This document shows, piece by piece, positions 6,878-27,581 of a stretch of 64,000 nt of DNA. The notes under the pieces are model-generated. The model did no database searches. It was not told the origin of the DNA and was given only the letters and a program-made list of their open reading frames with translations. Source of the DNA: Geomonas ferrireducens (GTDB lineage: Bacteria; Desulfobacterota; Desulfuromonadia; Geobacterales; Geobacteraceae); assembly GCF_004917065.1 (NCBI RefSeq), contig NZ_SSYA01000001.1, positions 1,496,161-1,560,160 on the forward strand, read 5' to 3'. The translations under genes were made by a program, and so were the position numbers. Positions within the stretch are counted from its first letter, which is position 1. Each line of letters starts with the position of its first letter.

Positions 6878-7984
6878 GTGGCTACTGGCGTTTTCCGCGA
6901 ACTGCTTGAGACGGACCTCGGGAAGGGGGTGAGCCTCATCGACCCGCTGCGCAATCATCGCTGGGACCGGTTCGTGCACGCCCATCCCTACGGCTGGATA
7001 ACGCACCTCTCCGGTTGGAAAAGGGTGCTGGACAAGAACTTCCAGCACATGTGCGGCTATTACCTGGCGCTCACCACCCCCGGTGGCGCCATCAAGGCGG
7101 CCCTCCCGATCTACGCGGTGCGGAGCTGGCTGACCGGCCGGCGCCTGGTAAGCATCCCGTTTGCCACTCTCTGCGATCCGCTGGTATCGGAGTCGTCCGA
7201 GATGGAGATCCTGTGCGACGCGGTGCTGCGGCTTGCCGAACAGCTCGAGATCCCCCGCATCGAGATCAGGACGGCGCAGGCGCCACACCTGCTCGATCGG
7301 GAAAGGTTCCGCACCGACTGCGGCCACAAGCACCACTTCATCAGGCTCTCCCGCGACCCCGAGGAGGTCAGGATGCGCTTCCACAGAAGCTGCGTGCGGC
7401 AGCGCATCCTCCGCGCCGAGAACTCGGGGCTGAGCATCATCCGGGGATGGCGTGAAGCGGATCTGATGGATTTTTACCTCCTGCACCGGGTCATGAGAAG
7501 GAAGAGGGGGCTTCCCCCGCAGCCGTACCCTTTGGTTAAATCGCTCTGGCAGACCTTTTCCGGACAGGGGCTGGCCGAGCTCCTGCTCTGCCGCAAGGGC
7601 GCGGAGACGGTGGCCGGGGTGCTGCTTTTCACCTACAAAGGACGCGTCTCCATCGAGTACTCCGCGATGGACGCGAACCATATCGACTGTAGCCCTCTGC
7701 ATTTCCTGCTCTGGAACGTCATCAAGGACGCCTGCCGAGCCGGCTATCAGCGCTTCGATTTCGGGCAGACCAAGGAGCAGAACAAAAGCCTGATGGACTT
7801 CAAGTCCCATTGGGGGACCGAGATCCTGGATCTCCCTCATTTCCTCTACCCCAACGACCCGGCGCTCCCGAGCCCGTTGTACAACAGGTCGCTGGCGAGG
7901 AAGGCGCTGCATTACCTTTGCAACAAGGCGCCGGACACGGCGCTCAGCTATCTTGGGGAGTTCTGCTACCGCCACATGGGGTAG
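6878..7984 (+). CDS. FemAB-like GNAT-fold acyltransferase
   Basis: 368 residues with GTG start preceded by TTGGAGG. The N-terminal part (NHRWDRFVHAHPYGWITHLSGW) and the second GNAT half, with RAGYQRFDFGQTKEQNKSLMDFKSHWG, match the FemAB-type proteins found near exopolysaccharide or PEP-CTERM loci in Gram-negative bacteria. They are related to peptidoglycan bridge aminoacyltransferases and lack membrane segments. The substrate cannot be read from the sequence. No polysaccharide cluster or exosortase is adjacent, so the surface-polymer role is inference. Single gene. Confidence 0.78.
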   Translation: MATGVFRELLETDLGKGVSLIDPLRNHRWDRFVHAHPYGWITHLSGWKRVLDKNFQHMCGYYLALTTPGGAIKAALPIYAVRSWLTGRRLVSIPFATLCDPLVSESSEMEILCDAVLRLAEQLEIPRIEIRTAQAPHLLDRERFRTDCGHKHHFIRLSRDPEEVRMRFHRSCVRQRILRAENSGLSIIRGWREADLMDFYLLHRVMRRKRGLPPQPYPLVKSLWQTFSGQGLAELLLCRKGAETVAGVLLFTYKGRVSIEYSAMDANHIDCSPLHFLLWNVIKDACRAGYQRFDFGQTKEQNKSLMDFKSHWGTEILDLPHFLYPNDPALPSPLYNRSLARKALHYLCNKAPDTALSYLGEFCYRHMG

Positions 7985-8123
7985 CCGCTTCCCCGGGGAG
8001 AAGCGCTCCGGCGGCCGGTTCGGCACTTTCGGGTGCACCCCAGGTACCGGCCCGCCTGGAGGTGGTGGATAACAGCCGCAGTGGCCCAGGGGTCATCCCT
8101 CAAGGGGATGGAAGGAGGAAGTC

Positions 8124-8435
8124 ATGGCCGAGGTGAAAAGGATCCAGATTCAGGAGGCGCGCAGGAAGGTGCAGGACGGAGAGGCCCTCTTCGTCTGCGC
8201 CTACGACAGCGAGGAGATGTGCGGCGGGATTCGCCTTGAGAAGGCGCTGACCATGGGAGAGTTCAACGCGAGGCTCCCGGAGATCCCGAAGGAGAAGGAG
8301 ATCATCTTCTACTGCAATTGACCGCAGGAACACACGTCTGCCGGTCGGGCAGCGGAGTTCCAGGAGATGGGGTTCACCAAGGTGTCGGCGCTGAAGGGTG
8401 GCGTGAACGCCTGGAAGGAGGCGGGGTTCCGGTAA
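8124..8435 (+). CDS. Rhodanese-like selenoprotein (Sec66 encoded by in-frame TGA)
   Basis: 103 residues if the TGA at 8319-8321 is read as selenocysteine. Before it the frame ends ...EKEIIFYCN; after it the same frame continues PQEHTSAGRAAEFQEMGF and ALKGGVNAWKEAGFR to a TAA at 8433. The two halves make one complete rhodanese domain, with Sec at the place where Cys homologues have the second Cys of a YCxCP motif, the usual catalytic position. A small hairpin 16-31 bases after the TGA has a GGTCG loop, as expected of a bacterial SECIS. AAGGAGG precedes the ATG. Sec-containing rhodanese-related proteins are known from Geobacter-type genomes. An automatic annotation would stop at residue 65 and call a fragment. 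No sel genes lie in the window. Confidence 0.85.
8322..8355 (+). promoter_or_regulatory. SECIS-like element for Sec insertion
   Basis: Immediately 3' of the TGA at 8319. The apical stem CTGCC (8338-8342) pairs with GGCAG (8348-8352) and closes a GGTCG loop. The first loop G is 22 bases after the TGA, within the spacing known for SelB-dependent SECIS elements, and the GGUC loop recalls that of E. coli fdhF. An outer pairing CCGC/GCGG is possible. The element is also coding. Confidence 0.72.
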
Positions 8436-8451
8436 GAAACGCTTCAAATGC

Positions 8452-8487
8452 AAAAGGGCCCTCCGCTGCCGGAGGGCCCTTTTTTTA
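8452..8487. terminator. Bidirectional terminator
   Basis: GGGCCCTCCG/CGGAGGGCCC stem with a CTGC loop, flanked by AAAA on the left and seven T on the right, so it can serve both the selenoprotein gene and the minus-strand glycosyltransferase operon. Confidence 0.88.
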
Positions 8488-10110
8488 TTCGTCGCTTTCT
8501 GCGGCTTTCCGCACCGCACCGGCTTCTTTCAGATAACGGTCGATCCCTGTACGGTTCCAAAGTACCACCTGCTTGCTCCTGAAAGGCTGCCGGAAGAAGT
8601 ACTCCACCGGTTCGATACGCCGCTTGTCCGGCTCGTACGTGATAAGGGCCACTTTGTCGTGGGTCGCCACGTATGCTCCGACCTCATCCGCACCCTTCAG
8701 CTCCACCAGGGGGTGCTCCAACCGCCCCATGAAATGAAACTGACCGTGGTACTTGTCGACGTGCAGCACCTCGTACCCCTCGGCCTGCTTCTCCCTGATC
8801 GCCTGAGCGATGGGGTGCAGGTCGTAGCGCAGGAACATGGTCTGCCCGCCGATGAGCACGAGCGCGCAGCAGGCAAGCGAGGCGACGGCCACCCGGGTGA
8901 CCAGGGCTGGCATGGTGCGGGGGCGCAGGCCGAAAAGGAGAGCGCCGAGGAGGAAGAGGCCGCCGGCGGCCCACCTCACCTCGGTGAGGTCGAAGTGTCT
9001 GAGCATGCGTCCGTGATTGATGAACGAGGCGGTGAGAAGGCCAGCCCCCAGGATCAGGTAGAGAATCGCTATGGGGAGCCTCCAGCGCGCGACGTCCCCC
9101 TGCTCTTGGGCGATGCTCTTCGCCATGAGGAGGCTGAAGGCAGGGAGCACCGGGATCAGGTAGTGGACCTGCTTTCCGGAGAGCAGCGAGAAGACGACGA
9201 GGCTCACGCCGCACCAGATCATGACCATGCGGGACCCCGGATCTGCGGTGAGCCTTTTCCAGGCGCGCCACGCGGGGGGGAACAGGGCCCACGGCAGGAG
9301 CAGGGTCGGAATCCAGGGGAGGTACCACCAGATCGGGCGCCTGTGGGCAAAGGAGTTGGCCATCCGGTTCACCGTCTGCCCCCAGAGGATGGCGCGGCGG
9401 TAGGTTTCGCCGCCGGTCAGCGCCGCGGGGACGAGCCAGAAGGAAAGAACCGCGATGCCGATCAAAAGGGAGAGCCCAATGGAGGCGTACCACCTGCCGG
9501 CGGGGCGCTCGCCGGGGGCCCAGAAGGGGGCGAAGAGGGCGACCGGCAGGACGTAGACCAAAACGACGGGACCCTTAGTGAGGATGCCGAAGCCGATGGC
9601 GACCCCGAGCTGCATGAACCAGAGGAGGCGCTGCTCCTTCACCGCCGAGATCACCGCGTCCACCGCGAGCAGCACCCACAGGGTGAGCACGACATCGAAC
9701 ATGATCACCGCGGACCACAGGAGGTAGGAGAGCATGGAGGCGAGGACGAGCGCGGCGTAGCGGGCGACCTGTTCATCCTGCCAGAGCCTCTTGGCGATCC
9801 GGTGCACGAGGGCCACGTTCATCATGCTGAAGATGAGGGGGATGAAACGGAGGGTCCCTTCGTTCACGCCGAAAATGAGCCAGTCGAGGTTGAAAAGCCA
9901 GAAAAGCAGCGGGGGCTTGTGGGAGTAGGGGAGTCCGTTTTGCAGCGGGACGATGTACGACCCCTTGTTCCACATCTCCCACCCTACCGAAAGGTAACGG
10001 GTCTCATCGATCGGGAAGTATGGGAGCAGAAAGGAAAATGCGATGGCCGGGAAAGCAAGGATCGCGAAGGGAAGCCAGCGTTGGCTACTCCATGGGTGAC
10101 GCTGCGGCAT
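8485..10110 (-). CDS. ArnT-like glycosyltransferase (GT39/GT83 family)
   Basis: 541-residue polytopic inner-membrane protein with about a dozen hydrophobic helices. The first periplasmic loop carries FPIDETRYLSVGWEMWNKG followed by PYSHKPPLLFW, the signature of the ArnT/PMT family, whose Asp/Glu pair is catalytic and which uses polyprenyl-phosphate sugars. ArnT proteins move 4-amino-arabinose to lipid A, but many family members use other sugars. It overlaps the LAB_N gene by 26 bases and is the last gene of a three-gene minus-strand operon with an ArnC-like transferase. The donor sugar and acceptor are inferred only in outline: no arnA, arnB or arnD is present. Confidence 0.85.
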   Translation of the reverse strand: MPQRHPWSSQRWLPFAILAFPAIAFSFLLPYFPIDETRYLSVGWEMWNKGSYIVPLQNGLPYSHKPPLLFWLFNLDWLIFGVNEGTLRFIPLIFSMMNVALVHRIAKRLWQDEQVARYAALVLASMLSYLLWSAVIMFDVVLTLWVLLAVDAVISAVKEQRLLWFMQLGVAIGFGILTKGPVVLVYVLPVALFAPFWAPGERPAGRWYASIGLSLLIGIAVLSFWLVPAALTGGETYRRAILWGQTVNRMANSFAHRRPIWWYLPWIPTLLLPWALFPPAWRAWKRLTADPGSRMVMIWCGVSLVVFSLLSGKQVHYLIPVLPAFSLLMAKSIAQEQGDVARWRLPIAILYLILGAGLLTASFINHGRMLRHFDLTEVRWAAGGLFLLGALLFGLRPRTMPALVTRVAVASLACCALVLIGGQTMFLRYDLHPIAQAIREKQAEGYEVLHVDKYHGQFHFMGRLEHPLVELKGADEVGAYVATHDKVALITYEPDKRRIEPVEYFFRQPFRSKQVVLWNRTGIDRYLKEAGAVRKAAESDE

Positions 10111-27194: not shown

Positions 27195-27581
27195 ATGAGA
27201 CTTTTTGCCGTTTTGATTGCCGTAGTCGTACTAACCGCTTCCCTCTCCCAGGCCGTAGGGCTTGCCAACGTGACCTCGAAGCAGGCTCAGACCGTGATGT
27301 CGAAGAACAAGAAGATGTTCCTGCTCGACGTGCGCACCCCGGACGAGTTCCGTCAGGCGCACCTGAAAGGGTCCGTGCTGATCCCGTTGGGCGAGCTGAA
27401 CCGCAGGGTGCAGGAGATCCCGCGCGACCGGCCGGTGCTCGTGTACTGCGCCGTGGGCGCCCGCTCCGCCACCGCCGCGAGCTTTCTCGCCTCCAAAGGT
27501 TACCGCGAGGTCTACAACATGACCGACGGCATCGTCGGCTGGTACCAGAACGGTCTGCCGCTGCAGTTGGGCGGCAAGTAG
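27195..27581 (+). CDS. Periplasmic rhodanese-like protein
   Basis: 128 residues from the ATG at 27195 (an in-frame TTG precedes it). Signal peptide FAVLIAVVVLTASLSQAVG, then a single rhodanese domain with FLLDVRTPDEFRQAHLKGS and the active loop VYCAVGARSATAA, whose Cys is catalytic. Binds or moves sulfane sulfur in the periplasm. Last gene of the efflux operon, 25 bases after the MBL gene. Unlike the rhodanese at 8124 it uses Cys. Confidence 0.88.
   Translation: MRLFAVLIAVVVLTASLSQAVGLANVTSKQAQTVMSKNKKMFLLDVRTPDEFRQAHLKGSVLIPLGELNRRVQEIPRDRPVLVYCAVGARSATAASFLASKGYREVYNMTDGIVGWYQNGLPLQLGGK

Follow-up and report, generated by a model that had tools for sequence, protein, structure and literature searches.

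The gene at positions 8124–8435 (plus strand) of the 64,000-nucleotide stretch of Geomonas ferrireducens DNA analyzed here, the window, carries an in-frame TGA at 8319–8321 that is almost certainly read as selenocysteine, judging from sequence comparisons. SelB, the selenocysteine tRNA and a hairpin just past the UGA would insert selenocysteine at residue 66, and the product would be a single-domain selenoprotein of 103 residues with a rhodanese fold. This reading follows from a conserved TGA, coding constraint beyond it, a covarying hairpin and the presence of selA, selB, selD and tRNA-Sec in the genome. An earlier note, made from the letters of the window, had proposed a selenocysteine-containing rhodanese with a bacterial SECIS, and the proposal finds support in the selenocysteine machinery, in cysteine homologues and in the recurrence of the TGA. 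Taken together, the selenoprotein, its SECIS and the placement of the protein in a clade of its own form a reading that we hold with high confidence.

The frame opens with ATG at 8124 and closes with TAA at 8433–8435, and TGA codon 66 is its sole interruption, just as the earlier note had described. Translation table 11 yields an ORF of 65 amino acids from the same ATG, the fragment that the earlier note expected automatic annotation to call, and 37 further codons lie between the TGA and the TAA. An AGGAGG motif (8113–8118, plus strand), which may act as the ribosome-binding site, stands 5 bases 5' of the ATG. A hairpin with a T run, resembling a terminator, lies directly after the TAA (8452–8483, plus strand; one found against a mean of 0.5 in shuffles), a position that fits the TAA, and not the TGA, as the end of the gene. 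No sigma-70-type promoter was found in 7950–8550, and an Rfam scan of 7900–8700 returned no family at gathering score, its best weak row (E 0.013) falling at the terminator. Scanning the whole window for an in-frame TGA with a SECIS-like hairpin and a Cys, Ser or Thr context gave four candidates, 8319 among them. The window also holds an ordinary rhodanese domain with the loop YCAVGARSA and no TGA (27375–27554, plus strand).

By sequence profile and by structural model, the read-through protein is predicted to have a rhodanese fold. It scores 38.5 bits against Pfam PF00581 Rhodanese (cut-off 22.2), and an AlphaFold2 model built from a 22-row alignment has a mean pLDDT of 91.2. Foldseek returned 56 matches at E ≤0.001, with many rhodaneses and rhodanese fusions among the 50 matches listed, and a sequence profile matched 23 distinct solved chains, including GlpE. 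Escherichia coli GlpE (1gmx), a single-domain thiosulfate sulfurtransferase, resembles the protein in fold (TM 0.78) and in length (108 residues), but its loop has one cysteine in the profile alignment, whereas the family described here has Cys-x-Sec.

The TGA is shared well beyond this genome. A search with the read-through protein in 141 genomes of the order gave matches at E ≤1e-5 in 74, and the rows of at least 80 bits (34 rows in 33 of the 141 genomes) all contain an internal TGA, the row from genome G120 having a TAA besides. Within the genus the gene occurs in 16 of 19 genomes, all but G035, G041 and G043. Across the phylum a profile search matched 101 of 395 genomes at E ≤1e-12; here all 27 rows of at least 77.9 bits, from 26 genomes, 4 of them shared with the order search, have the TGA. 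Weaker rows of the phylum search are mixed: the majority carry a TGA and represent a sister type, and some lack it. Named carriers include Geomonas oryzae, G. edaphica, G. azotofigens, G. paludis and Citrifermentans bremense. The close relatives form a clade with two marks, VCAY where LDVR is usual and the loop Y-C-x-U-x-x-E-x-T/S. Of 126 distinct profile rows, which do not represent population frequencies since loci below the best rows were picked by choice, the VCAY clade accounts for 56, and TGA stands at position 66 in 56 of 56, counted irrespective of the residue at 66 and with two broken copies included. These two copies are apparently damaged: one (L059, genome G120) has a TAA after the motif and the other (L101, genome G217) loses the frame after it.

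The codons beyond TGA 8319 evolve as coding sequence by their pattern of substitution. Differences from 11 close orthologues, which are not mutually independent, number 60, 43 and 186 at first, second and third codon positions before the TGA and 29, 49 and 92 after it, and are 208, 210 and 200 over the 90 bases that follow the final stop. A true stop at 8319, with a 65-residue fragment made and the remainder decaying, would accord with the table 11 ORF, but the third-position bias after the TGA, the identical TGA throughout the VCAY clade and the covarying hairpin 3' of it leave such a stop highly improbable. A sequencing error that turned a cysteine codon into TGA takes a single base change, and homologues with CxC exist; the earlier note had named TGC or TGT at 8319 as an outcome that would overturn its reading. 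The presence of TGA in every distinct row of the clade, drawn from many genomes, rules this explanation out for practical purposes.

The putative SECIS (8335–8354, plus strand) has a stem of five pairs (8338–8342 with 8348–8352), a GGTCG loop at 8343–8347, a bulged U at 8337 and two lower pairs. Its core, CTGCC-GGTCG-GGCAG, lies 17–31 bases past the TGA, which bears out the hairpin of the earlier note and moves its start by one base from the 16–31 given there. The RNA of 8322–8363 folds into the hairpin with the two additional pairs at −18.5 kcal/mol (z −2.72; 3 of 200 shuffles equally good), and two shorter cuts fold less strongly (z −1.74 and −1.98, with 14 and 7 of 200 shuffles equally good). 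The fold by itself is only moderately unusual, and it is the comparison across sequences that lifts the hairpin above chance. We scored a hairpin as present when its loop occupied bases 22–26 after the TGA, with at least five Watson-Crick pairs and a G as the first or second base of the loop. At this fixed place it occurs in 46 of 52 unique VCAY-clade sequences (L101 included), where synonymous recoding predicts 5.6, and in 26 of 29 sequences of the sister LYCAU type, where it predicts 0.9, a null weakened by applying the codon usage of seven ORFs from this window to all genomes. It occurs in one of 11 cysteine homologues, or one of 10 without L120, which was cut at the wrong place. The hairpin also covaries: over 79 distinct sequences, with L101 left out, pairing holds in 98.7% of 395 cells, and 61 cells have a change on both sides of the stem against 23.1 in shuffles and 0 to 11 when the stem is slid by one to three columns. 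Nearly all of this covariation comes from two of the five pairs, and further pair types, one of five covariation measures, were not above shuffles in the hairpin (296 of 500 as high). The SECIS of E. coli fdhF likewise has a small loop starting GGUC, with a U bulged out beneath its upper stem, and differs in stem sequence. A small apical loop with a G, in a hairpin close 3' of the UGA, is the bacterial SECIS criterion as outlined in PMC1088965, and 8338–8352 has these features. A CxC homologue (L110) retains, at the place of the SECIS, a hairpin of six pairs with a G loop, perhaps a fossil SECIS left by a change from selenocysteine to cysteine.

The genome holds the machinery that decoding would need. 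The earlier note had asked for selA, selB, selC and selD, and the search placed selA (609.9 bits, cut-off 267.9), selB (395.9, cut-off 242.25), selD (359.2, cut-off 125) and a tRNA-Sec with anticodon TCA (74.9, cut-off 47) all above their cut-offs. Among 55 genomes carrying the rhodanese gene, 54 have selA above cut-off, the exception being G488, which is 82% complete. Since 13 of 15 genomes picked for lacking the gene have selA too, the presence of selA supports the selenocysteine reading without discriminating. The selD of the same genome (contig C1, 1927695–1928612) has its own in-frame TGA, in AAGUAAKL, with a hairpin after it, and, judging from its sequence, this selenium-donor enzyme is apparently a selenoprotein itself.

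The kind of protein, a CxU selenorhodanese, is known already, and the VCAY branch is a separate variant of it. A CxU rhodanese is listed as a selenoprotein form in two reviews, PMC13188914 and PMC9312934, where the family of NCBIfam model NF041203 figures as rhodanese-like selenoprotein form 3 or COG0607 form 2; it shares with the present protein the fold, the CxU motif and the distance from TGA to hairpin. Our protein could simply be a divergent member of that family, as NF041203 (rhodanese_LYCAU) is its best NCBIfam match (E 5.4e-18) and motif and hairpin position are identical. The match reaches 64.9 bits, however, against a cut-off of 115, and none of the NCBIfam models listed for the read-through protein reached its cut-off; five further clade members score 53.3 to 70.4, whereas the single LYCAU-type control (L063) scores 166.6. 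The protein also has VCAY and not LDVR in its N-terminal half, and a branch supported at 100/99 sets the VCAY group apart from the other rows in a tree of 121 rows and 102 columns, in which many forks are unresolved and the bootstrap had not settled. The cysteine of VCAY (Cys25, codon 8196–8198, plus strand) aligns with the Asp of LDVR in many other rhodaneses, and cysteine at column 25 is found in 56 of the 126 rows, all of them in the clade. Within these 56 distinct rows there is no cysteine form at position 66. On this evidence we consider plain membership of the NF041203 family unlikely and favor a separate clade.

Alignment with cysteine homologues, as the earlier note had advised, does place cysteine at the selenocysteine position, in 9 CxC and 2 SxC rows among the 126 distinct rows, all outside the clade. 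The same note held that homologues with neither residue there would speak against it; such sequences exist among remote relatives, 26 of the 126 distinct rows keeping Cys64 with G, S, A or others at 66, and there are none within the clade. At 23 clade loci we saw by eye no recurrent gene neighbor. A literature search found no description of the VCAY branch, though two Haft papers cited in PMC13188914 may bear on its novelty, and a search for selenoprotein together with Geomonas found no paper. Form 1 of PMC13188914 (UxxS, WP_010941598.1), as presented there, is likewise a selenocysteine rhodanese of the same order. Five loci (L066, L068, L069, L072 and L073) belong to another selenocysteine rhodanese type of the order, with the motif YCSG(S/N/T)TU, and judged by motif are probably published form 1; their selenocysteine lies five residues past the loop cysteine, unlike the two residues seen here.

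The earlier note inferred that selenocysteine stands in for the catalytic cysteine, an assignment that the alignments leave finely balanced. In the model, C64-N-U66-P-Q-E lies between strand 59–63 and helix 70–81, with Cys64 (codon 8313–8315, plus strand), the C of the CxU motif, directly past the strand leading into the active-site loop. Compared with Cx4R rhodaneses, this loop has two extra residues, exactly at the catalytic site, and the two flanks give different answers. The upstream strand aligns without gaps to ordinary rhodaneses and sets their loop cysteine on Cys64, whereas the register of the downstream helix puts Sec66 at the classical catalytic place. Read from Sec66, the loop is Ux4T (U-P-Q-E-H-T), in agreement with the Cx4R/T catalytic motif given in PMC10135228; Cys64 fits neither Cx4R/T nor Cx5R. 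At position 71, 43 of 55 clade rows have T, 11 have S and one has A, in a set of rows chosen for their TGA. Two SxC homologues (L076, L077) have Ser at 64 and Cys at 66, keeping a chalcogen at 66 only.

The protein may also be a selenoprotein in which Cys64 is the classical persulfide-carrying nucleophile and Sec66 its resolving or redox partner, an arrangement to which we give somewhat less than an even chance. It draws on the ungapped upstream alignment, on the 26 rows that retain Cys64 and vary at 66, and on position 64 within the clade, with Cys in 54 of 56 rows and Sec in the other two (L096, L097); the SxC homologues and the Ux4T register stand against it. The 26 rows include some with CxS (L107, L114) and CxA (L108, L112) that the tree places with the LYCAU type. 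An early lean, taken from the upstream alignment, that selenocysteine does not replace the catalytic cysteine proved unsafe in view of the register on the downstream side and of the SxC homologues, and was dropped. Sec66 as nucleophile with Cys64 as its partner keeps a slight preference from the alignments, at about an even chance, lowered from a somewhat better one because 26 rows vary at position 66. Under the assignment to Sec66, its selenolate would act as nucleophile in the active-site loop and take a sulfane sulfur or an oxidant atom from the substrate; Cys64 would then resolve it as a selenenylsulfide, which a thioredoxin-type reductant could reduce. Such a protein would be a rhodanese variant for redox reactions or persulfide handling, and not simply a thiosulfate:cyanide sulfurtransferase, and we infer persulfide or peroxide chemistry for it.

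A more unusual by-product of the analysis is a set of rhodanese genes with the motif YUxU, in which two TGA codons lie three bases apart and a SECIS-like hairpin follows the second. We found 14 (L070, L096, L097 and L126–L136), 13 as rows of the phylum search and one of the order search, a count of finds and not a frequency. L096 and L097 fall inside the VCAY clade, on separate branches of the tree. A text search of the main text of PMC13188914 gave no occurrence of 'UxU'. A broader and tentative reading, which we put at rather less than even, is that of an as yet unnamed rhodanese family with obligate selenocysteine, in which Sec66 and Cys64, perhaps with Cys25 in place of the rhodanese Asp, would form a redox center. 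Cys64 would have given way to a second selenocysteine more than once in the family and its sister type, two UGA codons three bases apart being decoded before a single SECIS.

The VCAY clade adds to the bacterial selenoproteome a branch in which the selenocysteine form alone was found and which the nearest NCBIfam model does not accept. The branch matters for the annotation of Geobacter-type metal reducers, and the UxU sister genes would permit asking how the ribosome decodes two nearby UGA codons with one SECIS.
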